DNA of 64,000 nt from Ensifer adhaerens (GTDB taxonomy: Bacteria; Pseudomonadota; Alphaproteobacteria; Rhizobiales; Rhizobiaceae), in NCBI RefSeq assembly GCF_013283195.1, contig NZ_JABEKT010000002.1, positions 868,001 to 932,000 on the forward strand, given 5' to 3'. The notes beneath the pieces were generated by a model. It saw only the letters and a list, made by a program, of their open reading frames with translations. It was not told where the DNA came from and did no database searches. Below are positions 24,800 to 38,492 of this stretch, one piece after another. Each line of letters starts with the position of its first letter. The first letter of the stretch is position 1. The position numbers were made by a program, and so were the translations under genes.

Positions 24800-25717
24800 G
24801 TGGGGTGGGAGGTCGTGAACGTTCATCCTTCGCATCACGGTGCTTTCGAACACCCTCTTGCTCCCTGGATTGACGCGATCCTCGAGCGAGAGCAGTTTGC
24901 CGAAGCCTTGCGCGATGTGGCGCTGCGGCTTGTCGCGATGCACGACATCGCGCCCAGGATCGTGCGCTACACCGCCAATCTGCAGAAGTGGCTTCTCACC
25001 CAGGCAATCCTGACTTTGCACTTCGAGCGCAAGACGGACCCCACCCGCTCGGGCCTGACAGCGGCAAAGCTCTTGGATTTTTTCGTCGCCAACAATGTGG
25101 CAAGCCGAAATACGGCCGTGGCTCATCTGGCCGAAATGCGAAGCTACAGGCTGTTGCTTGATGCCGAATGGGCGGGCGACAAGCGTCTGCGGCCGCTGAT
25201 CGTGTCGGAAACGGCCGAGGACCTTATCCGTCAGTGGTTCGACGGGCACCTCAGATCGCTCGACAGGTTGGACAAGGGGAGGCGCTGCGATCTTTCCAGT
25301 GCCAAGCCATCCCTGATGCATTTCGCACATCCAAGGGCGACGCGGCGCCTGTTCGGCGAGCCAGGCTGGTGTTCACCGCCAGAAAGCGTTGCCACATTCG
25401 TCTGGACGGAGTCCGGCAGCAACATTCTCCATGATCTGATTGCGCGCCTGCCCAAGGGGGAGCTTGCTGAGGGGCAAATAACGATCGGCCCCTTGCGGAT
25501 CAGCGAGATCACCAACCGCTACATCATTTCGAAAAGTCACGCCCAACGGGTGTTTGCGCGTGCGCGCGACCTGGGCATCGTCGGTTGGCAAAGGCCGGGC
25601 AACCGCGGCGATCTATGGGTGTCCTCAGCGCTTGTGCATGACTATCGACGATGGCAGGCGGTCAAGTTTGCCGCTCTCGAAGAGGCATTCGATTGGGCTG
25701 TTGCCCGAACGGCATAG
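24800..25717 (+). CDS. Hypothetical protein, possible winged-helix regulator
   Basis: A 305-residue soluble protein without signal or membrane segments. Two segments look like helix-turn-helix units: KLLDFFVANNVASRNTAVAH (about residues 88-108) and ISEITNRYIISKSHAQRVFA, followed by a wing-like LGIVGWQRPGNRGDLWVS. This suggests DNA binding, but I do not recognise the family. GTG 24800 opens the frame; GTG 24815 is also possible. It is the gene immediately before the curli-type cluster and reads toward it, so a role in its control is a reasonable guess, not shown. Confidence 0.6.
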   Translation: MGWEVVNVHPSHHGAFEHPLAPWIDAILEREQFAEALRDVALRLVAMHDIAPRIVRYTANLQKWLLTQAILTLHFERKTDPTRSGLTAAKLLDFFVANNVASRNTAVAHLAEMRSYRLLLDAEWAGDKRLRPLIVSETAEDLIRQWFDGHLRSLDRLDKGRRCDLSSAKPSLMHFAHPRATRRLFGEPGWCSPPESVATFVWTESGSNILHDLIARLPKGELAEGQITIGPLRISEITNRYIISKSHAQRVFARARDLGIVGWQRPGNRGDLWVSSALVHDYRRWQAVKFAALEEAFDWAVARTA

Positions 25718-25918: not shown

Positions 25919-26323
25919 ATGAACAACGCTAAAGTAATTTCTGCAGTATTGCTTGCATCGCTTCTTTCGGCTCCGGTCGCCATGGCCGGCACCGAATTCG
26001 CTTCGCCGGCCTTCGTGCAGCAGGCCACCGGCGGCGCCGGCTTTTCGGCGCTCGATACTGCCGCCATCATGAAGCCGGTCATGGACCTGATTGTTGCAAC
26101 GCCGACCGTCGACACGTCGTCGCTCGCGGGCAACCTTTCCTTCGTCTACCAGAGCGGTGACTTCAACACCGCCTCGATCCAGCAGAGCGGCGTACGCAAC
26201 GTCGGTTTGATCCAGCAGGCCGGCTACATGAACTCGGCCTCGATCAGCCAGACCGGCGTCGGCCACCAGGCCTTCATCTCGCAGCAGGGCCGCAACAACG
26301 TTGCGATAATCAGCCAGCGCTAA
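25919..26323 (+). CDS. Small curlin-repeat protein (CsgB/CsgA-like)
   Basis: A secreted amyloid subunit of 134 residues. A signal peptide (KVISAVLLASLLSAPVAMA) is followed by a non-repeat segment and then three to four curlin units at the C-terminus: FVYQSGDFNTASIQQ, GLIQQAGYMNSASISQ, AFISQQGRNNVAIISQ. Spacing and the inward-facing Ser-Gln-Asn-Gln pattern are those of curli subunits. A short protein with few repeats fits a nucleator role. ATG 25919 follows GGGGAGACAAG. The gene is monocistronic, ends in a terminator and converges on csgF. Confidence 0.85.
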   Translation: MNNAKVISAVLLASLLSAPVAMAGTEFASPAFVQQATGGAGFSALDTAAIMKPVMDLIVATPTVDTSSLAGNLSFVYQSGDFNTASIQQSGVRNVGLIQQAGYMNSASISQTGVGHQAFISQQGRNNVAIISQR

Positions 26324-26431: not shown

Positions 26432-26704
26432 TTACTGCCCGTCATCCACCTCTGGCAGCGGCACCGGGTTGGGATTGGGCTGCGGAACGCCACCGAAATC
26501 GGGGAAGTCGATCGTGAATCCTGGGCCACTGTCGCTTGCACCTTCGCCCTGGGCGCTTGCCTGCGAAAGCAGCCAGTTGCCGTTTAGCGGATCGCCGCCG
26601 AGCGAGGGATTGATCGGGCGATAGACAAGCTCGGACGCGAAGCCCGTTCCGCCTGCCGCGATGGTTACCGTTGCCGCGAGAAGTGCGGTCTGAAGCAACT
26701 TCAT
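26432..26704 (-). CDS. csgF: Curli assembly protein CsgF
   Basis: CsgF is a small secreted protein that plugs the outer face of the CsgG pore and couples secretion to nucleation. The 90-residue product has a signal peptide (LLQTALLAATVTIAAGG) and then the diagnostic CsgF segment ELVYRPINPSLGGDPLNG followed by NWLLSQASAQ. The C-terminal part is shorter than in enteric CsgF and ends in a proline-rich tail (VPQPNPNPVPLPEVDDGQ). ATG 26704 follows AAGGAG. It is last in the giant-curlin operon. Confidence 0.88.
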   Translation of the reverse strand: MKLLQTALLAATVTIAAGGTGFASELVYRPINPSLGGDPLNGNWLLSQASAQGEGASDSGPGFTIDFPDFGGVPQPNPNPVPLPEVDDGQ

Positions 26705-26735: not shown

Positions 26736-27344
26736 TCAACGTTTAGGTAGAACGTACATCCGGCCCGGGACCACGACAACGGTCTTGTTTTCCAGTCCGC
26801 GCAGGCCGGTCGGCATCATGTACCGTCCGCTCTGTGCCGTCTGGATCGCCAGCACCGTCGAATTCTTGGAATCACGCACATCCAGCACGCCGGCGAGGCT
26901 GTTGCCGTCCTGGATATAGGCGATCTGGTTGTTCTCGCCGGAGACGCCGACAAGCTGGAAATTATTGTCGCCGCGGCTTGCCTGCACCACCGAGTTGTTG
27001 TTGCCACCCTGGACGAGAAGCAGGGCCGAGCTGTTGCCCTCGATCGCCTGGACGGCGCGGTTGTTGGTGCCTGCCTGCTGGATCAGCGCCAGGCTGCCCG
27101 TTCCCTCGATGCCGGCATTGGCATTGTTGCCTTGGCCGAGCTGGATGATCGATGTCGTCGAACCGCTTTCACCGCCGAGGAACGGCTGGATCGGCGCCAT
27201 CAGCGCGTTCACCTCGGCCGGATTGGTGCTGTAATCCCTGACGAGCAGGTCTTCGGCCGCAGCCGTGCTGGCGGCCGCTACGAGGCCTGCGGCCATGATC
27301 GCGTGGCGAAGAACTTTGCCGATTGGGCGTGTTGAACGTTTCAT
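26736..27344 (-). CDS. Curlin-repeat protein, probable nucleator (CsgB-like)
   Basis: A 202-residue exported protein. After a signal (AIMAAGLVAAASTAAA) and about 40 residues of non-repeat sequence come about five curlin-type units: SIIQLGQGNNANAG, ALIQQAGTNNRAVQAIEG, LLLVQGGNNNSVVQ, FQLVGVSGENNQIAYIQ and VLAIQTAQSGRYM. The units are less regular than in the giant curlin, and the protein ends with a basic, non-repeat tail VVVVPGRMYVLPKR. In enteric curli, CsgB carries such an irregular basic end that anchors it at the cell surface, so a nucleator role is likely. It lies between the csgH-like gene and csgF, with 31 bases to each. Confidence 0.82.
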   Translation of the reverse strand: MKRSTRPIGKVLRHAIMAAGLVAAASTAAAEDLLVRDYSTNPAEVNALMAPIQPFLGGESGSTTSIIQLGQGNNANAGIEGTGSLALIQQAGTNNRAVQAIEGNSSALLLVQGGNNNSVVQASRGDNNFQLVGVSGENNQIAYIQDGNSLAGVLDVRDSKNSTVLAIQTAQSGRYMMPTGLRGLENKTVVVVPGRMYVLPKR

Positions 27345-27865: not shown

Positions 27866-30800
27866 TCAATTCTGGCTGACGAAAGCGACGTTTCTGCTGC
27901 CGGCCTGGATGACCACCGAGTTCTGGCCGCTGTTGCCCTGGCTGACGATCGCATAGTTGCGATCGGCATCGCTCGAGCCGCTGCCGTACTGCAGCACCAC
28001 CGAGTTGGAAGCGGAGCCCGTCTGGCTGATCCAGGCGTTGGAGTAGGCGCCTGCCTGGACGACTGCCGACGAATGACCGCCAGCGCCCGACTGGTCGACG
28101 AGAGCAAGCGAGTTGTTCGACGACTGGACGATCAGCGAGGTGTTGCCCACTGTGTTCGACTGGTTGGTGCCGGCGACGTTCTTCTTGCCGTTCTGGATCG
28201 TCAGAGCAGCGTTGCCGAGGCTTGCGATTTGCGTCGTCGTTGCCACGTTGTCCCGACCGGACTGGATGATGCCGGCTGCAGAGAGGATGGCGCCGTTCTG
28301 CAGGTTGCTTGCGCTGTTGCCTTCGCCAGACTGAACGATGGCGGCGGCTGCACCGAGCGTTGCCGTCTGGATGTTGGCAGCACCGTTGCCGTCACCGATC
28401 TGAACCGTGGCGGCAAGCGAGCCGGCAGCAACGGTCTGGAAGTTGAAGGCCTCGTTGTCGTCGCCGACCTGTACGATACCGGCTGCCGACGCGACCGTCG
28501 GAATGTTCACTTCGCCAAGCGGGTTGGTGAACGGAGTTTCGATAGTTTTGTCTGTTTCAGATTGTGTGGTTGTAGCATTTTTGCGAATGCCGAGGAAACT
28601 GCCGCCACTATAGACGGTCTTTGCCTCATAGGTGGTTATGTCCACACTGAGCGTTCCACTTGCAGGGAGTATAAGCTGCCCAATCTGGACGTTAGCGGCG
28701 GCGTTACCGTCGCCAAACTGCCCAACGAGAGCAACAGAGTCTTTAGCAGGGGCAGAGCCGGAGCCCGTCGCAATTGTCGGACCGCCTTCAACGCCAAACT
28801 TGAACAAGTCAAAACCAACATTCCAATTGGTGTAATTCGGCATCGGCAGCTTGATGGTGGCGTCAAACGCCGGCGCCACCTCATAGCTGACGGTCTGCGT
28901 CACGCCCTGCGTGTTGTAGGCGGTGTTTCCCGAACCGACCTGCAGGATGCCGGCGACGACATTGCTGCTGTCGGCCTGCTGCAGGTTGCCGGCGGTGTTG
29001 CCCCAGCCGAACTGGCCGATCAGGGCCGTCGCGCCGACGACGTCGTTCTGGACGTTGGCAGCCTCGTTGTTGCCGCCAGCGCCCTGGATGATGAAGGCGT
29101 TGGAGAGTGACGACGCCGTCTGGCTGTTGACCGCTTCATTGAAGCGACCGCTCTGGATGATCGTCGCATCGACGCCGGTGCTCGAGAGCTGCAGGTTGGC
29201 AGCCGTGTTGTCGCGGCCGTCCTGTAGGATGGCGGCGCTGCTGCCGGTTACGCCGGACTGCAGGTTGGCTGCCTCATTGCGGTTGCCCGACTGGATGATC
29301 GAGGCCTCGACATCCGTGCTGGTGAGCTGGACGTTGCCGGCGACGTTGCGGTTACCGTCCTGCAAGATGCCGGCGGTGCCGCCGTTGACACCCGACTGGG
29401 CATTGCTCGCCTCGTTGCGGTCGCCGTTCTGCAGGGTGAATGCGTCGACATCGCTGCTGCCGGTCTGGATCGTGCCCGCACTGTTGCGGTCGCCCTTCTG
29501 CAGGATGATGGTTGCCATGTCAGCGCCGTCGGTCTGCAGGTTTGTCGCTTCGTTGCGCGCGCCGTCCTGGACGATCAGCGCATCAGAGTTGACCAGATCT
29601 GACTGCACGTTGCCGGCCGTGTTGCGGCTGCCGAGCTGCAGGATCGAGGCGTTGGTCGGATCGACGTCGGTCTGAAGGTTGGCTGCGACGTTGTTGGAGC
29701 CGCCCTGGATGATGTTCGCAGTTGCTTCGAGGCCGCCGCTTTGTACGTTCACACCGCTGTTGCCGCTGCCGACCTGCAGAATGTTGGCAGCGTTCTTTAC
29801 GCCGCTGTCGATCTGCGCGTTGCTGGCGCCGTTGCCGGTGCCGAACTGGGCGATGTTGGCATCATTGTCGCGGCCGGTATCCTGGAAGTTCGTGCCGGTG
29901 TTGCCCGAACCGAACTGGCCGATATTGGCGCTGTTGCGGGTAAACTGCTCGCTGCCGACGGCGTCGTTCTGGGAGTTGGCCGCGATGTTGTCGTCGCCGA
30001 ACTGCAGGATCGTCGCGTCGTTGCCATCGGTCAGGTTTCCGCCGCGATTGCGGGCGTTGACGGCAAGGTTGTCGTCGCCAAACTGGGCAATCGACGAGCT
30101 GTGCTTCGTGCCGCCTTCCGACAGGTTGTAAGCGTCGTTGCGCTTGCCGCCCTGCAGGATGGTTGCCGTCGAATTGCGGCCATCGTTCTGGGTGTTGACG
30201 GCAAGGTTGTCGTTGCCGACCTGTCCAATGACGGCCTTGTTGTCGTTGTTGTAGCCGTTGTTGTGGAAGTCGCCGATCTGGCTGTTGAGCGCGGTGTTGC
30301 GATTGCCGTCCTGGACAGTCTGCGCCGTATTGTTCTTGCCGCCGCCTGCGCCGCCGGCCTGGAGGTTGACGGCGTTGTTCTTGTTCCCGCTCTGGACGAT
30401 CGAAGCGTTCAGCTTGTCGGCCGGGCCCGCCTGGGAACCCGGAGACTGCAGGTTCGAAGCCGTGTTGTTGTTGCCGTCCTGCAGGATGAAGGCGTCGGAG
30501 TTGTTCACCGAGGTCTGGACGTTGGCAGCGGCGTTGCTGTTTCCGTCCTGGATAACCGTTGCGGAGGTCGGGTCGACATTCGTCTGGGTGTTGACGGCGC
30601 TGTTGTCCTTGCCGTTCTGGGCAATGATGGCCGTTGCGTCGACCGAACCACCCTGCTGGGTGTTGATCGCGCCATTGCCCTTGCCTACCTGCAGGATGCC
30701 TGCATTGCCGTCCTTGCTGCCGGTCTGGTTGTTGATCCCGGCGTTGCCGGTGCCGCTCTGGGCGGTGACGGCGTTGGACGACGTTTCGTTCGTCTGGTTG

Positions 30801-31381
30801 TTGATGGCAGCATTGCCGGATCCGCTCTGCAGGATGCCGGAGAAATTGCCGCCGCCAAGCGCGCCCTTCTGGTTGCTTTCGGCATAGTTGCCTGGCTTGG
30901 TAGCGTCGTCATTCAGCTGGATGATGCCGGTGTCGTTGCTCGTCGCGCCCTTTTCCTGGGTGTTGCGCGCAATATTGGCGTTGCCGCCCTGGAAGATCGT
31001 GCCGCGGTTGTTGCCGGTCTGGCGGAACGTGTCGACCAGGTTGTTGGTGCCGAACTGGGCAATGCCACCGACGTTCTCGCCCTTCTGCAGGAAGTCACCG
31101 CCGACGACGTTCTGCTTGCCGAGCTGCATGACGCCGAGGTCGTTGTTGCCTTGTTGAGCGTCACCGGCTGCGCCACCTGCTGTCAGCGGCAGGAAGACGT
31201 TCTGCTGGCCGTGCTGGTAGATGAAGCCGCGGTTGGCGCCTTCCTGGGACAGGTAGGCGAAGTTGCTGTCGTCGCGCTGGCCGATGTAACCGGTGTTGGC
31301 TTCCTGCGCTGAAGCGGCTGCGGACATCGCCAGGACGGCAACGCCGGTCAGCAACAAAGTTCTTCTTGCTGAAAATTTCAT
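27866..31381 (-). CDS. Giant curlin-repeat protein (CsgA-like, about 45 repeats)
   Basis: A secreted amyloid-type subunit of 1171 residues, against about 150 in E. coli CsgA. A signal peptide (MKFSARRTLLLTGVAVLAMS, cleavage near AASA) precedes a continuous array of units of 20-25 residues with the pattern A-x-I-x-Q-x-G-x-x-N-x-A-x-N-x-Q, for example ILQDGNNNTASNLQ and IIQSGNRNEAANLQ. I count about 45. Two non-repeat inserts interrupt the array near residues 825-885 and 897-962, and the last units become more hydrophobic (VFVSQ type). The long frame is free of stops and keeps its register throughout. It is first in an operon with csgH-like, csgB-like and csgF genes; the exporter gene csgG has its own unit upstream. 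Confidence 0.9.
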   Translation of the reverse strand: MKFSARRTLLLTGVAVLAMSAAASAQEANTGYIGQRDDSNFAYLSQEGANRGFIYQHGQQNVFLPLTAGGAAGDAQQGNNDLGVMQLGKQNVVGGDFLQKGENVGGIAQFGTNNLVDTFRQTGNNRGTIFQGGNANIARNTQEKGATSNDTGIIQLNDDATKPGNYAESNQKGALGGGNFSGILQSGSGNAAINNQTNETSSNAVTAQSGTGNAGINNQTGSKDGNAGILQVGKGNGAINTQQGGSVDATAIIAQNGKDNSAVNTQTNVDPTSATVIQDGNSNAAANVQTSVNNSDAFILQDGNNNTASNLQSPGSQAGPADKLNASIVQSGNKNNAVNLQAGGAGGGKNNTAQTVQDGNRNTALNSQIGDFHNNGYNNDNKAVIGQVGNDNLAVNTQNDGRNSTATILQGGKRNDAYNLSEGGTKHSSSIAQFGDDNLAVNARNRGGNLTDGNDATILQFGDDNIAANSQNDAVGSEQFTRNSANIGQFGSGNTGTNFQDTGRDNDANIAQFGTGNGASNAQIDSGVKNAANILQVGSGNSGVNVQSGGLEATANIIQGGSNNVAANLQTDVDPTNASILQLGSRNTAGNVQSDLVNSDALIVQDGARNEATNLQTDGADMATIILQKGDRNSAGTIQTGSSDVDAFTLQNGDRNEASNAQSGVNGGTAGILQDGNRNVAGNVQLTSTDVEASIIQSGNRNEAANLQSGVTGSSAAILQDGRDNTAANLQLSSTGVDATIIQSGRFNEAVNSQTASSLSNAFIIQGAGGNNEAANVQNDVVGATALIGQFGWGNTAGNLQQADSSNVVAGILQVGSGNTAYNTQGVTQTVSYEVAPAFDATIKLPMPNYTNWNVGFDLFKFGVEGGPTIATGSGSAPAKDSVALVGQFGDGNAAANVQIGQLILPASGTLSVDITTYEAKTVYSGGSFLGIRKNATTTQSETDKTIETPFTNPLGEVNIPTVASAAGIVQVGDDNEAFNFQTVAAGSLAATVQIGDGNGAANIQTATLGAAAAIVQSGEGNSASNLQNGAILSAAGIIQSGRDNVATTTQIASLGNAALTIQNGKKNVAGTNQSNTVGNTSLIVQSSNNSLALVDQSGAGGHSSAVVQAGAYSNAWISQTGSASNSVVLQYGSGSSDADRNYAIVSQGNSGQNSVVIQAGSRNVAFVSQN

Positions 31382-31677: not shown

Positions 31678-32523
31678 TTATGAGGACGGAAGCGAGATAT
31701 TTCCATATTTCTCTTCATAGGCCCGAATGAACTCTGCTTCGCGCGTGCGGTCCTTCAGATGCCAGAGGCCCTGGCGCACACCATCGACGGCGAGCGAATA
31801 GACGCCGAGTTCGATGCCTTCTCTGACAGCCAGCGAGCCTGGATCGTTGCGCGACTGGCCGAGTTCGATCTCGAGCAGTTCGCCGGCGGTCGCAAACTTG
31901 TATGCCCCGCCACGAACCTGCACCGAGTAGATTTGCTTGGTCGTGGTGGTGGAGGCGAGGACTTCGCCGGTTTGCACGCTGACGGCGCGCAGATTGACGG
32001 TGACGATATCGGAGCGATACTGCACGTCCCCGCCGATCCCGAGATAGCGTGCACCGGCGCCGCCGGTCAGTTCGTTGGAATCGTATCCGACGATGCCGCC
32101 CTCGAGCAGCAGTCCGGCGAACCGCACGGGCGGCAGGCCACTCTGACGGCCATAGGCGCGTTGCGTGTTCTCGATCAGTGTTCGTTCCTGGACGAGATTC
32201 TTGAGGCCCGAGCGTTCGACGACCCGGAACCACTGGCCGTTACCGGTCTTCTTGAGCACGTCGACCAGGATCGCAGCACCGCCCTGTGTGACAGCGCGGC
32301 TGTATTCCGCAAAAGCCTCGTTGGGCTTTGCCTGGCCGGTGAGGTCAGGGAAATCATAAACCGCGATATCGACCGGGATCTCGGGCAATGGCATCGACTT
32401 TACCTTCGGTGTCGTCTTCGTCGGTGCGGTCAGCGTCGCCGCCGGCGTATCCAATTGTTGACCGCTTTGACATCCCGCAAGGAGCCCACCAAAGACACAA
32501 AGAGCTGCCAGTTTGAACTTCAT
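31678..32523 (-). CDS. csgG: Curli secretion channel lipoprotein CsgG
   Basis: CsgG forms the nonameric outer-membrane pore that exports curlin subunits. The 281-residue precursor has a lipoprotein signal with lipobox LLAGC (Cys18), then the conserved core with IPVDIAVYDFPDLTGQAKPN, VERSGLKNLVQERTLIENTQ, a glycine-rich LLLEGGIVGYDSN strand segment and VNLRAVSVQTGEVLAS. Length matches the family. ATG 32523 is the start because only it gives the lipobox near the N-terminus. A palindromic operator candidate lies about 100 bases upstream and a strong terminator downstream, so it is a separate unit from the subunit genes. Confidence 0.95.
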   Translation of the reverse strand: MKFKLAALCVFGGLLAGCQSGQQLDTPAATLTAPTKTTPKVKSMPLPEIPVDIAVYDFPDLTGQAKPNEAFAEYSRAVTQGGAAILVDVLKKTGNGQWFRVVERSGLKNLVQERTLIENTQRAYGRQSGLPPVRFAGLLLEGGIVGYDSNELTGGAGARYLGIGGDVQYRSDIVTVNLRAVSVQTGEVLASTTTTKQIYSVQVRGGAYKFATAGELLEIELGQSRNDPGSLAVREGIELGVYSLAVDGVRQGLWHLKDRTREAEFIRAYEEKYGNISLPSS

Positions 32524-32864: not shown

Positions 32865-33248
32865 CTAACGGCTGACCGTCCCACGCCCGACTGTGGGCCA
32901 TTCCGTGTCGGACGAAATCAACCGGACGATTGCCGACGAGCCGGCACCAACGGTGGGCACGACATCGCTTGCTGCACGCTGGACGGTGCTGGAGCTGGCG
33001 GAAGAGGCAGCTTGCCCGCCGGCTTTTCCTGGTCGAGCAGATGAGGCTGAAGTATTTCTTTTTGCTTGTGAATTTGTCGTCGAAACATTCGGTTTTGCGC
33101 CGGATGGCATCTGGTCGACATAGGCTTTGTTGCCGCCATTTCGGTTGACCTGGTCGACATAGGCCTGTGCCCAGACCGTGCCGCTCGTCAACAGCGACAG
33201 GCAGAGGAAGGCGGAAATTCGCATGGGCGACAGCAGGTTCGAAGTCAT
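32865..33248 (-). CDS. Small secreted protein with a duplicated AYVDQ motif
   Basis: A 127-residue exported protein with a signal peptide (MRISAFLCLSLLTSGTVWA, cleavage AQA). The mature start has two units, AYVDQVNRNGGNK and AYVDQMPSG, which echo the Q-x-N-x-x-G-x-N-x-A-x-V-x-Q pattern of curlin repeats in miniature. The rest is Ser/Ala/Gly-rich and likely disordered. ATG 33248 follows GGTGAAG; GTG 33257 is possible. It lies directly before csgG on the same strand and may be a minor fibre component or accessory. I do not recognise a named family. Confidence 0.65.
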   Translation of the reverse strand: MTSNLLSPMRISAFLCLSLLTSGTVWAQAYVDQVNRNGGNKAYVDQMPSGAKPNVSTTNSQAKRNTSASSARPGKAGGQAASSASSSTVQRAASDVVPTVGAGSSAIVRLISSDTEWPTVGRGTVSR

Positions 33249-33388
33249 ATTCTTCACCAAATCTAAAAACCCTGATTAGACATGATCCTTATGCATTTCT
33301 TCATAAAACCACAATCGGCAACGCCTGTTTGACTCAGGTAATGTTCCGTGGAAGACAAAATGCACGAAGATATATTGGAGGACTCCCC

Positions 33389-34117
33389 ATGACGTGCAGG
33401 AACGCGATGCGTCTTGTGTTCGGCTTTTCGACGGCCTTGGTGCTCGCTTCGCCGTTGCCGCTGGCGGCGCAGGACTCGCCGGGGCCGATGTTCTCCACCC
33501 CCGCATCCCGCTCGACAACAGGTGCACCGATCCTGATCGACCCAAACGCAGACGGAAACGGCCAGATCATCGACTCCGTCGGCGGCAAGACGCAGATGCG
33601 GCCTGCCGGGACCTCTGACAAGGCGCAGAAGCCTGCGCAAGCGCAGCCATCAATGACCGGGGCTGCCGCCGAGCAGTTCAAGCAATGGGCGCTGCAATGC
33701 GTCGAACTGGGTAAGGAGCCTGCCCGCTGCCAGATCTCCGGCAGCACACTGTCCGGCGACGGCAAGCAGGTGATCCTGGTGATGAGCCTTGCGTTTCGTC
33801 CGGACGGAAAGACGGTTGCGATGCAAATGGCGGTGCCGCTCGGCGTCGCGTTGAAGGACGGGGTCAAGATCAATGTGGCTGGCGGTTACGAAGCGGCAAT
33901 GGCGCTCAGCCGTTGCACGCCGCAGGGTTGCCTTGTCGAAGGTGCCGTCGAGCCGGCGCTGGTCGAAGCGATGAAGGCGAAGGCGGCAGCAACCGTCACG
34001 GTGGCAACGCCGGAAGGCAAGGCGATCCCGATCACGCTATCGCTTTCCGGCTTTTCCGACGCCTACACCGCCCTTCTCGGGCGCCACGCGGACGCAAAGA
34101 AGGCGAGCAGCAACTGA
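33389..34117 (+). CDS. Invasion-associated locus B (IalB) family protein
   Basis: A periplasmic protein of 242 residues with a signal peptide (VFGFSTALVLASPLPLAAQ), a proline/alanine-rich linker and then the IalB domain: WALQCVELGKEPARCQISG, VAMQMAVPLGVALKDGVKI, MALSRCTPQGCLVEGAV and ITLSLSGFSDAY. Four cysteines sit in the two expected pairs. The family is widespread in rhizobia and Bartonella; its biochemical role is not established. ATG 33389 follows TTGGAGG. It is divergent from the small curlin-like gene. Confidence 0.88.
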   Translation: MTCRNAMRLVFGFSTALVLASPLPLAAQDSPGPMFSTPASRSTTGAPILIDPNADGNGQIIDSVGGKTQMRPAGTSDKAQKPAQAQPSMTGAAAEQFKQWALQCVELGKEPARCQISGSTLSGDGKQVILVMSLAFRPDGKTVAMQMAVPLGVALKDGVKINVAGGYEAAMALSRCTPQGCLVEGAVEPALVEAMKAKAAATVTVATPEGKAIPITLSLSGFSDAYTALLGRHADAKKASSN

Positions 34118-34192: not shown

Positions 34193-35113
34193 CTATATCC
34201 CGTGCAGCACCTGTGTCGCCTTGACTGCGGCCGAGGCGCGGTTTTCGACGCCGAGCTTCACATAGATCTGCTCAAGATGCTTGGTCACCGTGCGTGAGCT
34301 CAAGCCGAGGATCTCGCCGATGTCGCGGTTGGATTTCCCCTTGGCAATCCAGAGCAGCACCTCGGACTCGCGTTGGGTCAGGGCGAAATGCTGACGCAGC
34401 ATCTCGTCGTCGCTTCGTCGGCTTTCGGCCGTCAGCCTGAACAGGTACTCGTTGGCGCCGATCGAGCCGAGAAACGAGACCTGCAGGCCGGATTGCCCGG
34501 GCTCTTCGAGCGTAAAACTGTTTTCCCGCTTTCCGCCGGCCTCGGTCTTTTCCATCCAGGCTGCAATGCGTCTGGCGATCGTTGCCAGGCCCTCATCGCT
34601 GCCGGTTGCCGCGTTGACCAGGCGGTTGGCCTGCGGTGTCGACCAGCGAACGCTGCCATCAGAGCGAACGGCAAGCAGATGGCGACCGGCGGCATCGAGC
34701 GCGACGCGGGCGCTTTGCGCTGAGCGGGCATTGGAGAGATGAACGCGGATGCGCGCCCTCAGTTCATCGATGTTGATGGGTTTCGTCAGATAGTCGACAC
34801 CGCCGGCTTCGAGCGCATGGACCACATGCTCGGTTTCGGTGAGCCCTGTCATGAACAGCACCGGCGTCTGGCCAACCGAGGCGTTGGCCTTCAGTCTGAG
34901 GCAGGTTTCGAACCCGTCCATGCCGGGCATGACCGCATCCAGGAGAATGACGTCGGGGGTGATCCGGTCGGCAATCGACAGGGCGGCATTGCCGGAGGTG
35001 GCGATCAGCACGGAAAAGCCGGATTGCTCCAAAGCTTCGGTCAAAAAACCGAGCGCTTCGGGGGAATCGTCCACTAGCAGGACGATGTCGCGACGATCAT
35101 AAGTCTCAACCAC
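34193..35113 (-). CDS. Response regulator with LuxR-type output domain
   Basis: The 306 residues comprise a receiver domain (IVLLVDDSPEALGFL, phospho-acceptor Asp in VILLDAVMPGMDG, TKP lysine), a middle linker resembling a degenerate PAS segment, and a C-terminal LuxR helix-turn-helix (LTQRESEVLLWIAKGKSNRD, LGLSSRTVTKHLEQIYVKLG). I take GTG 35113 as the start, behind GGAG and overlapping the end of the hybrid kinase gene by 8 bases. It is the natural partner of that kinase, and the pair probably controls the nearby urea transporter genes. Confidence 0.88.
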   Translation of the reverse strand: MVETYDRRDIVLLVDDSPEALGFLTEALEQSGFSVLIATSGNAALSIADRITPDVILLDAVMPGMDGFETCLRLKANASVGQTPVLFMTGLTETEHVVHALEAGGVDYLTKPINIDELRARIRVHLSNARSAQSARVALDAAGRHLLAVRSDGSVRWSTPQANRLVNAATGSDEGLATIARRIAAWMEKTEAGGKRENSFTLEEPGQSGLQVSFLGSIGANEYLFRLTAESRRSDDEMLRQHFALTQRESEVLLWIAKGKSNRDIGEILGLSSRTVTKHLEQIYVKLGVENRASAAVKATQVLHGI

Positions 35114-38100
35114 GGGTGATGGCTCCAATCGTCGTTTTTTCCTTCAGGAAGGCATCATAACCGGAGAGGTCGAAGGCCTGCACATAGGCTCGCGCTGCCT
35201 TGACGAAGAGCTGATGTTCCGGTTGCAGGCCGATCTCGGCAAGCTTGGCCTCGATGCCTCTGACATAGCCGATCTCGCCGAGCCGGATCAATTCTTCCAC
35301 ATGGTGCTGACCGGGCAGCGTCATCGCATCCGCGCATGCAGCAACCGGTTCTTCAGATGCTTCGCCCTCATGGATCCAGGTGAGGCCGAGTTGCACGGCG
35401 AGTTTGTCCGCGAGTTGTCCGACGCCAAAGGGCTTGGTGAGTGTATCATTGTGGCCGACAAAGGCGCCGGTGGTCGACCCGTCGCCGATATTGGCGGACA
35501 GCATTATGATCGGCGCCACCTTGCCGTCGCGTCGCAATCGATCAACGAGGTCCCAGCCGCTCATATCGGGCATGGAGATATCGACGAGAAAGATATCCGG
35601 GCTGAGCGCTTCAAGCATGGCGAGGCATTGCTTGCCGCTGTCAGCCGTCAGCACGGTGAAATCCATCGGCGTGAGAATTTCGCGCATGAGGTCGCGGTGA
35701 TCGGCGTTGTCGTCGACCACCATGATTGTCCGCCGCGGGCCGAGATAGGAGGTGATCCGTCGCACGGCCACAAGCGGCGCCGGCCGGTCGACGGCGGAAA
35801 GCATCAGCCGGACCTTGAAGGTCGTGCCCTTGTTCGGTTCGCTGACGACGGATATCTCGCCGCCGAGCGTCTGTGTCAGCAACCGGGTGATGGTCAGCCC
35901 CAGGCCGAGACCTGGCATGCTGCCGAGATGCTCCGCCTCGCCGCGCTGGAAGGGGTCGAAGATGCGTGGCAGATCCCTCTCGGTTATGCCTCGGCCGCTA
36001 TCGCTGATCGTAAATGTCGCAACCTGGCTGCGATAGTCGATATCGAAGCGGATCTCGCCGCGCTCGGTGAACTTCATGGCGTTCGAGAGCAGATTGACGA
36101 GGATCTGGCGCAGCCGCTTTTCGTCTGTCTTGACGTAGCGTGGCAGGCTGGAGGCGCGCCGATGTTCGAAGGCGATGCCTTTCGCCTGCGCCTGCGGCCG
36201 GAACATCTCGACGACCTGGTCGAGGAAGTCGTAAACGTTGATTTCGTTGGAATAGACCTGCAGCTTGCCCGCCTCGATCTTGGAGATGTCGAGAAGCCCG
36301 TCGATGAGACCGGAGAGATGGTCGGCGCTGCGTTTGATCACCTTGATCGCGCCCTGTCGCCCCGGTGGGATCGTTTCATCGCGCTCAAGCACCTGTGCGT
36401 AACCGAGTACGGCGTTGAGCGGCGTGCGCAGTTCATGGCTGAGGCCGACGACATAGCGGCTCTTGGCGCGATTGGCTGCTTCGGCGGTCTCCTTTGCCTG
36501 CTGCAGGGCGGCGTCGGTCTTCTTGTGTGCGGCGATTTCTTTCAGGAGCAGCGTGTTCTGTCGCGATGATTCTTCCTCGGCGACGACACGGCTGTCATGG
36601 GCGAGCACATAGAACCAGCAGACAATGCCGGCGAGCACGGCAAAGACGAAGAAGACGACGGCAATGGTTCGCTCGACGACGACAGCCGTCTCCGGCGAGG
36701 CGTTGCCGGTCTGATGCGCGATCATCGCCAGGATCAGGCCGATGCCGGCGATCGAGAGCACGGCCGAAATGGCGTAGCGGCCGAGGCGGGTCGTCAGCTT
36801 CGCCGTTATGGATTCGGGCAGAAGGGCGTGCGCGACCGTGGCCACCTGTGCGTTGAAGCGGGCCTTCGGCTTGCACATGTCATGGCAGCGGCTGTCGAGT
36901 GAACAGCAGAGCGAACAGATGGGGGCGGCATAGGCCGGACACCAGGCCATGTCCTCCGGCTCGAAGGGGTGTTCGCAGATCGAGCAGGTGATCTCACTTT
37001 TGCTCGCCCAGCTCTTTCTTGGCTTGCGGGCGAGGTAGTATTTGCCGCCCGTTCCCCAAGCAATCAGCGGTGAGGCGACGAAGGCGACGATGAGAGCAAT
37101 GTAGGGCGCAAGCGATGCGGCGATGGCACCGAAGGTGCCGAAGTGCGCGATGAGCGCAATCGTTGCCGAAAGCGCCATGGCGCCGAGGCCGACCGGGTTG
37201 ATGTCATAGAGGTGAGCGCGCTTGAATTCGATGCCGGGCGGCGACAGGCCAAGTGGTTTGTTGATGAAGAGGTCGGCCGAAATGGTGCAGAGCCATGCCA
37301 TGGCGACGATCGAGAAGACGCCGAGCGTTTCCTCCAGCAGTTTGTAGATGCCGAGTTCCATCAAAAGCAGCGCGATCGCCACGTTGAACACCAGCCAGAC
37401 GACGCGTCCGGGATGGCTGTGGGTGAGGCGCGAGAAGAAATTAGACCAGGCGAGCGACCCGGCATAGGCGTTCATGACGTTGATCTTCAACTGCGAGACG
37501 ACGACGAAGGCGACCATCAAAAGGAGGGCGGCGGTCTCCGATGGGATCATGTAGCCGAAGGCGGTGTAGTACATCTGCGCCGGATCTGCGGCCTGTGTCG
37601 ATGGAACGCCGGACGAAAGCGCCAGCACGACGAGAAAAGACCCGGCCAGCAGTTTCGGCGCGCCAACCAAAACCCAGCCAGAGCCTGCCAGGAAGATGGC
37701 GACGCGGTGATGCAGCTTGCGCTGTCCGTCCGGCGGCAGAAAGCGCAGGAAGTCGACCTGCTCGCCGATCTGTGCCATCAGCGCGAAGATCACTGCCGAG
37801 GCCGCGCCGAACTCGATGAGGTCGAAGGGCGCAAGCGTGCCGGGCGGCCCGGATGCGTGGTGCATGCCGGCATAGGCAAGCCAGATGCCGACCTTCTCCC
37901 AATCGGCAAAGGCGATGAAAAGGAACGGCAGGATATTGAGCACGATCCAGAAGGGCTGGGTGATCAGTTGGAATTTGCTGATGAGTCGCACGCCATGGGT
38001 GACGAGTGGGATGACGACGACGGCGCTGACGATGTAACCGACCCAAAGCGGGATGCCGAGCGCAAGCTCCAGCGCTCCCGACATGATCGAGGCCTCGATC

Positions 38101-38492
38101 GCAAAGAGGATGAAGGTGAAGCTGGCATAGATCAGCGACGTCAGCGTCGAGCCGATATAGCCGAAGCTGGCGCCCCGGGTCAGAAGGTCGATATCGACGC
38201 CGTGGCGGATGGCGTAGCGGCTGATCGGCAGGCCGACCGTCAGGATCATCAGACTGGCGATCAGGATGGCGACGATGGCGTTGGTCGTGCCGTAGGACAT
38301 GGTGATCGCGCCGCCGATGGCTTCGAGCGCCAGAAACGAGATCGCGCCGATCGCGGTCTGAGAAATGCGCTCGGAGGAGAAGCGCCGCGCACTCTTGGCG
38401 GTGAAGCGCAGCGCATAGTCTTCCAGCGTCTGGTCGGCGACCCAGCGATTGTATTCACGTCGAACGGGAATGATGCGCTGGCGTGCCGCCAT
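35106..38492 (-). CDS. NCS1 transporter-histidine kinase-receiver fusion protein
   Basis: A 1128-residue hybrid sensor. Residues 1 to about 490 are a complete NCS1-type (cytosine/purine/allantoin) permease with about twelve hydrophobic helices. Next come a cysteine-rich segment starting CSIC at 503-506 and continuing through CPAYAAPICSLCC to CHDMC, likely a metal site, then two more helices, a coiled linker, a histidine kinase (H-box SHELRTPLNAVLGYAQ with His686; NLLSNAMKF; DSGRGI; GLGLGLTI) and a receiver with Asp971 in FLVDISMPDMSG. The transporter part likely acts as the ligand sensor. It overlaps the LuxR-type regulator gene, and urtABCDE lies close by, so a urea, purine or allantoin signal is likely. 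Confidence 0.9.
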   Translation of the reverse strand: MAARQRIIPVRREYNRWVADQTLEDYALRFTAKSARRFSSERISQTAIGAISFLALEAIGGAITMSYGTTNAIVAILIASLMILTVGLPISRYAIRHGVDIDLLTRGASFGYIGSTLTSLIYASFTFILFAIEASIMSGALELALGIPLWVGYIVSAVVVIPLVTHGVRLISKFQLITQPFWIVLNILPFLFIAFADWEKVGIWLAYAGMHHASGPPGTLAPFDLIEFGAASAVIFALMAQIGEQVDFLRFLPPDGQRKLHHRVAIFLAGSGWVLVGAPKLLAGSFLVVLALSSGVPSTQAADPAQMYYTAFGYMIPSETAALLLMVAFVVVSQLKINVMNAYAGSLAWSNFFSRLTHSHPGRVVWLVFNVAIALLLMELGIYKLLEETLGVFSIVAMAWLCTISADLFINKPLGLSPPGIEFKRAHLYDINPVGLGAMALSATIALIAHFGTFGAIAASLAPYIALIVAFVASPLIAWGTGGKYYLARKPRKSWASKSEITCSICEHPFEPEDMAWCPAYAAPICSLCCSLDSRCHDMCKPKARFNAQVATVAHALLPESITAKLTTRLGRYAISAVLSIAGIGLILAMIAHQTGNASPETAVVVERTIAVVFFVFAVLAGIVCWFYVLAHDSRVVAEEESSRQNTLLLKEIAAHKKTDAALQQAKETAEAANRAKSRYVVGLSHELRTPLNAVLGYAQVLERDETIPPGRQGAIKVIKRSADHLSGLIDGLLDISKIEAGKLQVYSNEINVYDFLDQVVEMFRPQAQAKGIAFEHRRASSLPRYVKTDEKRLRQILVNLLSNAMKFTERGEIRFDIDYRSQVATFTISDSGRGITERDLPRIFDPFQRGEAEHLGSMPGLGLGLTITRLLTQTLGGEISVVSEPNKGTTFKVRLMLSAVDRPAPLVAVRRITSYLGPRRTIMVVDDNADHRDLMREILTPMDFTVLTADSGKQCLAMLEALSPDIFLVDISMPDMSGWDLVDRLRRDGKVAPIIMLSANIGDGSTTGAFVGHNDTLTKPFGVGQLADKLAVQLGLTWIHEGEASEEPVAACADAMTLPGQHHVEELIRLGEIGYVRGIEAKLAEIGLQPEHQLFVKAARAYVQAFDLSGYDAFLKEKTTIGAITRG

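Follow-up and report, generated by a model that had tools for sequence, protein, structure and literature searches.

Long curlins have been described before. In the portions of PMC10192328 available to us, published curlins have 4 to 62 repeats, and degenerate curlins with insertions are described; the available text of PMC3521004 reports up to 22 repeats. In the curlin repeat, positions 1, 3, 5 and 7 and positions 12, 14, 16 and 18 point inward, and core positions 3, 5, 14 and 16 are given as hydrophobic, Ser or Thr, a consensus beside which a degenerate class exists (PMC10192328, available portions). We describe a 1171-residue curlin encoded in a curli locus of Ensifer adhaerens, on positions 868,001 to 932,000 of contig NZ_JABEKT010000002.1 (64,000 nucleotides, the window below). 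A giant curlin is in itself a known kind of protein. What sets this one apart from the curlins in the papers that our searches listed are a core zoned along the chain, with Asn at inward position 16 in the middle and not at the C-terminal end, and a paired insert that in some cases looks replaced.

The reading frame of the giant starts with ATG at 31381 and runs for 1171 residues without an internal stop. It contains 37 exact Q.G..N curlin motifs with a spacing of mostly 23 residues, against a mean of 1.56 and a maximum of 6 in composition shuffles (n = 100), and the curlin repeat pattern X6QXGX2NX10 is present. A 23-mer hidden Markov model (HMM), trained on 274 units from 17 relatives with the window left out, finds 37 units at 0 bits or above and 33 at 8 bits or above, where the shuffle means are 0.61 and 0. 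The mature length minus the inserts, divided by 23, gives 45.0 rungs, and the AlphaFold2 model has 41 strand pairs. The solenoid therefore has about 41–45 rungs with degenerate units at both ends, and the figure of about 45 units in the initial annotation is a fair one. Its expectation that curlin HMMs would match most units is borne out by the family-built model and only partly by the general ones: Pfam Curlin_rpt (PF07012) matches at 9.5e-13 and is individually significant in only 5 stretches, whose NCBIfam counterpart for CsgA needs 11 stretches added together to score 161.5 bits against a cut-off of 160. Among solved chains compared by sequence, R15.5 (8c50) is best at 3.8e-20, followed by E. 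coli CsgA (8enq) at 0.011.

The giant shares one locus with csgG and csgB. On the minus strand the order is csgG, giant, csgH-like, a 202-aa curlin-like gene and a short csgF, followed by csgB on the plus strand. CsgG scores well over its family cut-off (PF03783, 178.8 bits against 20.8), and with the PF07012, CsgA and CsgG (3x2r) matches the earlier assignment to a large curlin of a curli-type locus is supported. In the whole genome there is a single CsgG over the family cut-off, all 17 curlin matches at E ≤ 10 fall in this locus, and CsgE gives no match at E ≤ 10. A frameshift or misassembly, the main concern for such an array, is excluded in practice by the intact frame and by the collinear giant of locus L018, an independent assembly that is 88% identical, with no gap of 5 aa or more and no repeat gained or lost. 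Recent tandem expansion is likewise rejected; Tandem Repeats Finder finds no array, and among 36 units the highest pairwise DNA identity is 71%. Of 346 gaps of at least 12 aa between relatives, 92 have a length that is a multiple of 23 to within 1 residue, where a uniform spread expects 13%. We do not lean on this statistic, as the pairs depend on one another and window-size effects are uncontrolled.

Scanning a species-genome collection with csgG gives 23 loci. In the 18 loci with csgG of at least 69% identity a large curlin adjoins csgG; 17 of these curlins are complete (888–1375 aa) and that of L025 is cut by the contig end. Three more complete giants are found in L067 (open reading frame (ORF) of 1322 aa), L069 (ORF of 1197 aa with an uncertain start) and L085 (739-aa frame). 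All 20 further complete curlins taken from the clade are large, and the clade ranges from 26 to 53 rungs. With these relatives, and with published curlins of 4 to 62 repeats (PMC10192328, available portions), the size cannot be called unique or exceptional. At csgG identities of 45–59%, in ten loci, the curlins have 260–374 aa (L034, L035, L071–L076), 700 aa (Methylobacterium, L036) and 1046 aa (Microvirga, L037), and an eleventh lower-identity locus, L040, has curlins of 249 aa or less. L071–L076 are a sample of 6 from the 16 family genomes with csgG below 70% identity. Loci L082, L083 and L084 were left out, their proteins being identical to those of L029, L030 and L033, as were L068 and L070, which by the lengths of contig and ORF only were taken to duplicate L031 and L032. 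L025 belongs to the 22-sequence gap set and lies outside the 21-sequence sets used for Asn16, rungs and loop similarity. The alignments comprise 18 rows (A1), 11 of those (A6), 9 (A4), 11 (A5) and 16 loci (A2).

The giant-curlin system is rare and scattered. With the window's own genome counted each time, clade csgG occurs in 2 of 16 genus genomes (E ≤ 1e-80), in 9 of 394 family genomes and in 2 of 397 order genomes (both E ≤ 1e-100), and the other order genome belongs to a different family. Among plasmid records, csgG homologues at E ≤ 1e-60 number only 7 and are 50–60% identical. Two protein-database searches with the giant, in which 7993 and 733 candidates were scored, give no match at E ≤ 0.001, which we read as a scoring limit for repetitive queries rather than absence, since relatives exist in genome collections. 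A class-wide PF07012 search finds 8 of 337 genomes at E ≤ 1e-6, with a largest frame of 763 aa; it would miss such giants, the window's genome showing only csgB at this threshold.

Position 16 distinguishes the clade. Counted on units having Q18, Asn16 is found in 428 of 630 units of the 21 clade proteins and in 4 of 152 units of 11 other alphaproteobacterial ORFs; a further comparison set, in which some fragments may overlap, has it in 1 of 104. It is also zoned. The inner units of the 21 proteins have Asn16 in 418 of 499 cases, those of the first 155 residues in 14 of 45, and those of the last 140 residues in none of 126, and each of the 21 proteins has it in most inner units. In the window giant the corresponding counts are 27 of 28 inner units and 0 of 5 in the last 140 residues. 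These counts describe conservation and are not independent trials. CsgB of the same locus has Ile at position 16 in all four units. The ends of the giant thus have an ordinary curlin core like that of CsgB, and an additional column of Asn, a departure from the published core, runs through the middle. The description of inward Gln, Asn and Ser as the normal pattern of each unit was incomplete: inward Asn at position 16 is itself what departs from the norm, it is lacking at the ends, and about 120 residues form the paired non-repeat insert. Both ends are conserved, with a mean identity to relatives of about 0.6 across residues 1–150 and of 0.49–0.59 in the C-terminal part. In the literature listed by our searches, titles and abstract openings mention no Asn column in curlins and no exchanged insert, most subscription papers lying outside this coverage.

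A single pair of neighbouring Q.G..N gaps that are both at least 60 residues long (60–104, against a normal 23) occurs in every one of the 22 sequences; this threshold was fixed after the gap list had been viewed. L020 has a near second pair of 60/59, and L022, L027, L030, L031 and L039 have a smaller second pair of 40–44. Other long Q.G..N gaps are present, and some of them are degenerate rungs. The short curlins checked have no such enlarged pair. Methylobacterium has one too, and in Microvirga enlarged rungs alternate with normal ones. Once the similarity of the two protein ends is removed, the similarities of the two loops still covary across 21 sequences (partial r 0.38; 0 of 999 permutations), as expected if both loops are one unit.

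The long β-solenoid of the initial annotation is also what AlphaFold2 predicts for the whole window giant, with a predicted local distance difference test (pLDDT) of 79.1 and a predicted template modelling score (pTM) of 0.54; the loops are modelled as hairpins. In a separate model of residues 716–1074 (11 sequences; pLDDT 83.7, pTM 0.69) the insert loops are predicted to form long hairpins. The spacing between curlin repeats is 4.8 Å in the available text of PMC10192328. At 0.48 nm per rung the subunit would be about 21.6 nm long, and those of the clade 12.6–25.4 nm.

On balance, we consider it somewhat probable that the giant is a large fibre subunit with docking ends, an Asn-laddered middle and a side knob. 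In this Rhizobiaceae-like bacterium it would be the large subunit made by a curli (type VIII secretion) locus. The unfolded chain would exit through CsgG and then fold into one β-solenoid of about 45 rungs and about 21 nm. The ends with the ordinary core would be the faces that dock to CsgB and to the next subunit. The extra buried Asn column in the middle would keep a long chain's rungs in register and would make the middle a poor docking face and a poor template for canonical curlin, because buried Asn should stack best on Asn. The paired β hairpins of two consecutive rungs would protrude as a side knob, one per subunit; with one knob per head-to-tail subunit, the repeat number would set the knob spacing. 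The knob may serve in surface binding, or in escape from phages or grazers. As proposed in the initial annotation, such a subunit may also affect fibre nucleation, the CsgG channel and fibre mechanics.

The zoning could also be history rather than design. The giant may be an ordinary large curlin whose length and core differences are drift, hydrophilic fibres being sufficient and Asn16 being tolerated and fixed once by ancestry. Large curlins are published and also arise without Asn16, as in Microvirga (1046 aa) and Methylobacterium (700 aa), and all clade proteins are of shared ancestry. Between the window and L018 the ratio of nonsynonymous to synonymous change (dN/dS) is 0.175 for the whole giant, 0.11–0.16 outside the insert and 0.021 for csgG; the giant is therefore under purifying selection, weaker than that on the CsgG channel. 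The weaker constraint suits drift, but the values outside the insert do not, and neither does the persistence of the same zones in 21 of 21 diverged proteins. We regard this explanation as possible and rather doubtful.

Five close pairs were compared for insert, flanks and csgG by synonymous divergence (pS) and protein identity. Between the window and L018, pS/identity is 0.76/0.58 in the insert, 0.29/0.91 before it and 0.24/0.95 after it, and pS of csgG is 0.49. For L030 and L031 the values are 0.81/0.36 in the insert, 0.14/0.95 before, 0.11/0.96 after and a csgG pS of 0.37. The insert thus looks replaced, clearly in two of the five pairs, at the protein level only in a third, and not in the other two. 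Rapid divergence in place, in a loop under loose constraint, would account for the third pair, L021 and L022, whose insert identity is 0.32 against 0.82 in the flanks and whose insert pS of 0.77 is near the 0.73 of csgG. It would also account for L023–L038 and L024–L025, which have no insert excess, and for the loops of the window, which are still closest to those of L018. Weak constraint on the protein gives no rise in synonymous change, however, and in the two clear pairs insert pS exceeds that of the flanks and of csgG. Moreover, the loops of L018 are closest to those of L019, although its ends are closest to those of the window. Divergence in place without exchange is, to our judgement, unlikely, if worth keeping in mind. 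As a separate observation, csgG pS exceeds that of the giant flanks and of the 202-aa gene, both between the window and L018 (0.49 against 0.24–0.29 and 0.26) and between L030 and L031 (0.37 against 0.11–0.14 and 0.04). This could come from codon bias or recombination.

A stronger form of the fibre-subunit reading makes the giants programmed spacers. Only the ends would dock well, the Asn column would enforce exact register and block wrong stacking, and a recombining knob would be spaced about 13–25 nm apart by species. We think this unlikely at present. It is improbable that the giant is a surface-anchored adhesin beside a fibre made of the 202-aa or the csgB-like protein: the locus does have three curlin-like genes and the giant does bear an adhesin-like insert, but in L018 and most relatives these two smaller proteins carry 3 and 4 Q.G..N motifs, numbers that suit nucleators or accessory subunits, and the ends of the giant retain an open curlin core.

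Several points weigh against the fibre subunit with docking ends, Asn-laddered middle and knob. The two AlphaFold2 models rest on 18 and 11 sequences and their pTM values are 0.54 and 0.69. Neither model has a Foldseek match at E ≤ 0.001, and the best 50 rows of each contain no curli chain; VIA-align, which re-aligns Foldseek's own matches only, matches generic β-helices. The inward orientation of position 16 is taken from the available text of PMC10192328 and not measured. The zone borders were set after an earlier look at the pattern, in proteins that share ancestry. The twofold size variation in the clade (26–53 rungs) argues against a strict ruler. In L020, L021, L022, L027, L030, L031 and L039 the large pair occupies an earlier stretch of the chain and, in A1, is not aligned with that of the window, so shared descent of all the pairs is unproved. 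Finally, three of the five close pairs lack an excess of synonymous change in the insert, L021–L022 showing it at the protein level only.

Curli is a model functional amyloid, and how cells prevent wrong stacking of its chains is an open question. A natural curlin with different core residues at the ends and in the middle gives a direct test of nucleation and register. For E. coli curli no fibre period is reported by cryo-electron microscopy, and artificial markers on R15.5 gave no improvement in alignment, according to the available portions of PMC10192328. A side knob at fixed spacing, if true, would be a natural fibre marker, and its exchange between strains, if true, would point to a surface under changing selection.

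The features of the locus are listed in Table 1. Residues 1–25 of the giant look like a putative export signal, and the helix predicted at 3–24 has low confidence. The name csgH-like is used because the position in the locus fits and the protein stays below the curated PF21112 cut-off (18.4 against 27 bits). Its cysteines C45 and C125 are invariant in 9 of 9 rows of alignment A4 and may form a disulphide. The 202-aa protein matches no Pfam family. Its C-terminal tail (TVVVVPGRMYVLPKR in the window) is very conserved, and a basic tail resembling it also occurs in the smaller-curlin loci L034, L036 and L037; the protein may be a nucleator or anchor. The N-terminal stretch of CsgF sits in the CsgG channel. 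CsgF of the window is over its cut-off (PF10614, 45.3 bits against 25.8) and covers only profile positions 2–50 of 132; this stretch aligns with CsgF of solved complexes (E 0.016) and is followed by a Pro-rich acidic tail. Short CsgF also occurs beside smaller curlins, in L034 (371 aa) and L036 (700 aa), and reduced CsgF is therefore not tied to giant size.

Table 1. Features of the curli locus and parts of the giant curlin (window coordinates)
Feature	Position	Strand	Evidence
csgB-like curlin, 134 aa, divergent	25919..26323	+	PF07012 3e-14; CsgB model 1e-12
Short csgF, N-terminal part only	26432..26704	-	PF10614 positions 2-50 of 132, 1.2e-11; CsgF chain 6l7a E 0.016
202-aa curlin-like secreted protein, conserved C-terminal tail	26736..27344	-	Alignment A2; weak CsgA/CsgB model matches
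csgH-like, 140 aa	27376..27798	-	PF21112 18.4 bits; CsgH 2n59 profile match E 0.019
Giant curlin (csgA-like), 1171 aa	27866..31381	-	Intact ORF; PF07012 9.5e-13; CsgA model 161.5 bits; 8c50 3.8e-20
C-terminal part, residues 965-1171; last 140 residues without Asn16	27869..28489	-	Conservation; zoning
Second loop of paired insert, residues 900-964	28490..28684	-	Gap analysis; predicted hairpin strands
First loop of paired insert, residues 826-881	28739..28906	-	Gap analysis; predicted hairpin strands
Main repeat array, residues 181-825, Asn at inward position 16	28907..30841	-	Motifs, HMM, zoning
N-terminal zone, residues 26-180, degenerate rungs, conserved	30842..31306	-	Identity; few Asn16
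Leader (putative), residues 1-25	31307..31381	-	Hydrophobic stretch then ASAQ; predicted helix 3-24
csgG, outer-membrane channel	31678..32523	-	PF03783 1.1e-52; CsgG chain 3x2r 2.6e-50

Other genes adjoin the locus. A small secreted-looking protein is encoded upstream of csgG (32865–33260, minus strand), with AQAYVDQ as its start after the leader and WPTVGRGTVSR as its end; 12 of 20 giant-clade loci have a relative of it, and Pfam gives no match in the two relatives scanned and a weak one in the window. An IalB-family gene (33167–34117, plus strand; PF06776 1.4e-25) is divergent from the locus and has a tblastn match in all 20 giant-clade loci searched. On the other side, a 305-aa protein without a Pfam match (24800–25717, plus strand) has relatives in 8 of 20 giant-clade loci and is a possible regulator. 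A LuxR-type response regulator and a hybrid histidine kinase (34193–38492, minus strand) are found beside the locus only in L018 among the loci searched, so they are probably not part of the system.

Compared with known systems, the locus resembles that of E. coli CsgA (8enq) in its curlin repeats and in its csgG-dependent organization with csgB and csgF. E. coli curli genes include csgE and full csgF. CsgA has about 5 repeats, against about 45 in the window giant, no paired insert, and Ala, Val or Leu at position 16, where the window has Asn in the alignment. R15.5 of Pontibacter korlensis (PMC10192328, available portions), the top solved-chain match, is likewise a long multi-repeat curlin, but it has 15.5 repeats, is acidic and has Val or Ile at position 16 in the alignment. 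The 62-repeat curlin WP_189563214.1 and other large curlins in the same text share, by description, the giant size. Alphaproteobacterial csg loci of the csgH type have this gene beside csgA and csgB as in the window; in the available text of PMC3521004 this class has no csgC, csgD or csgE, and about half of alphaproteobacterial genera have no csgF, whereas the window keeps a short one.

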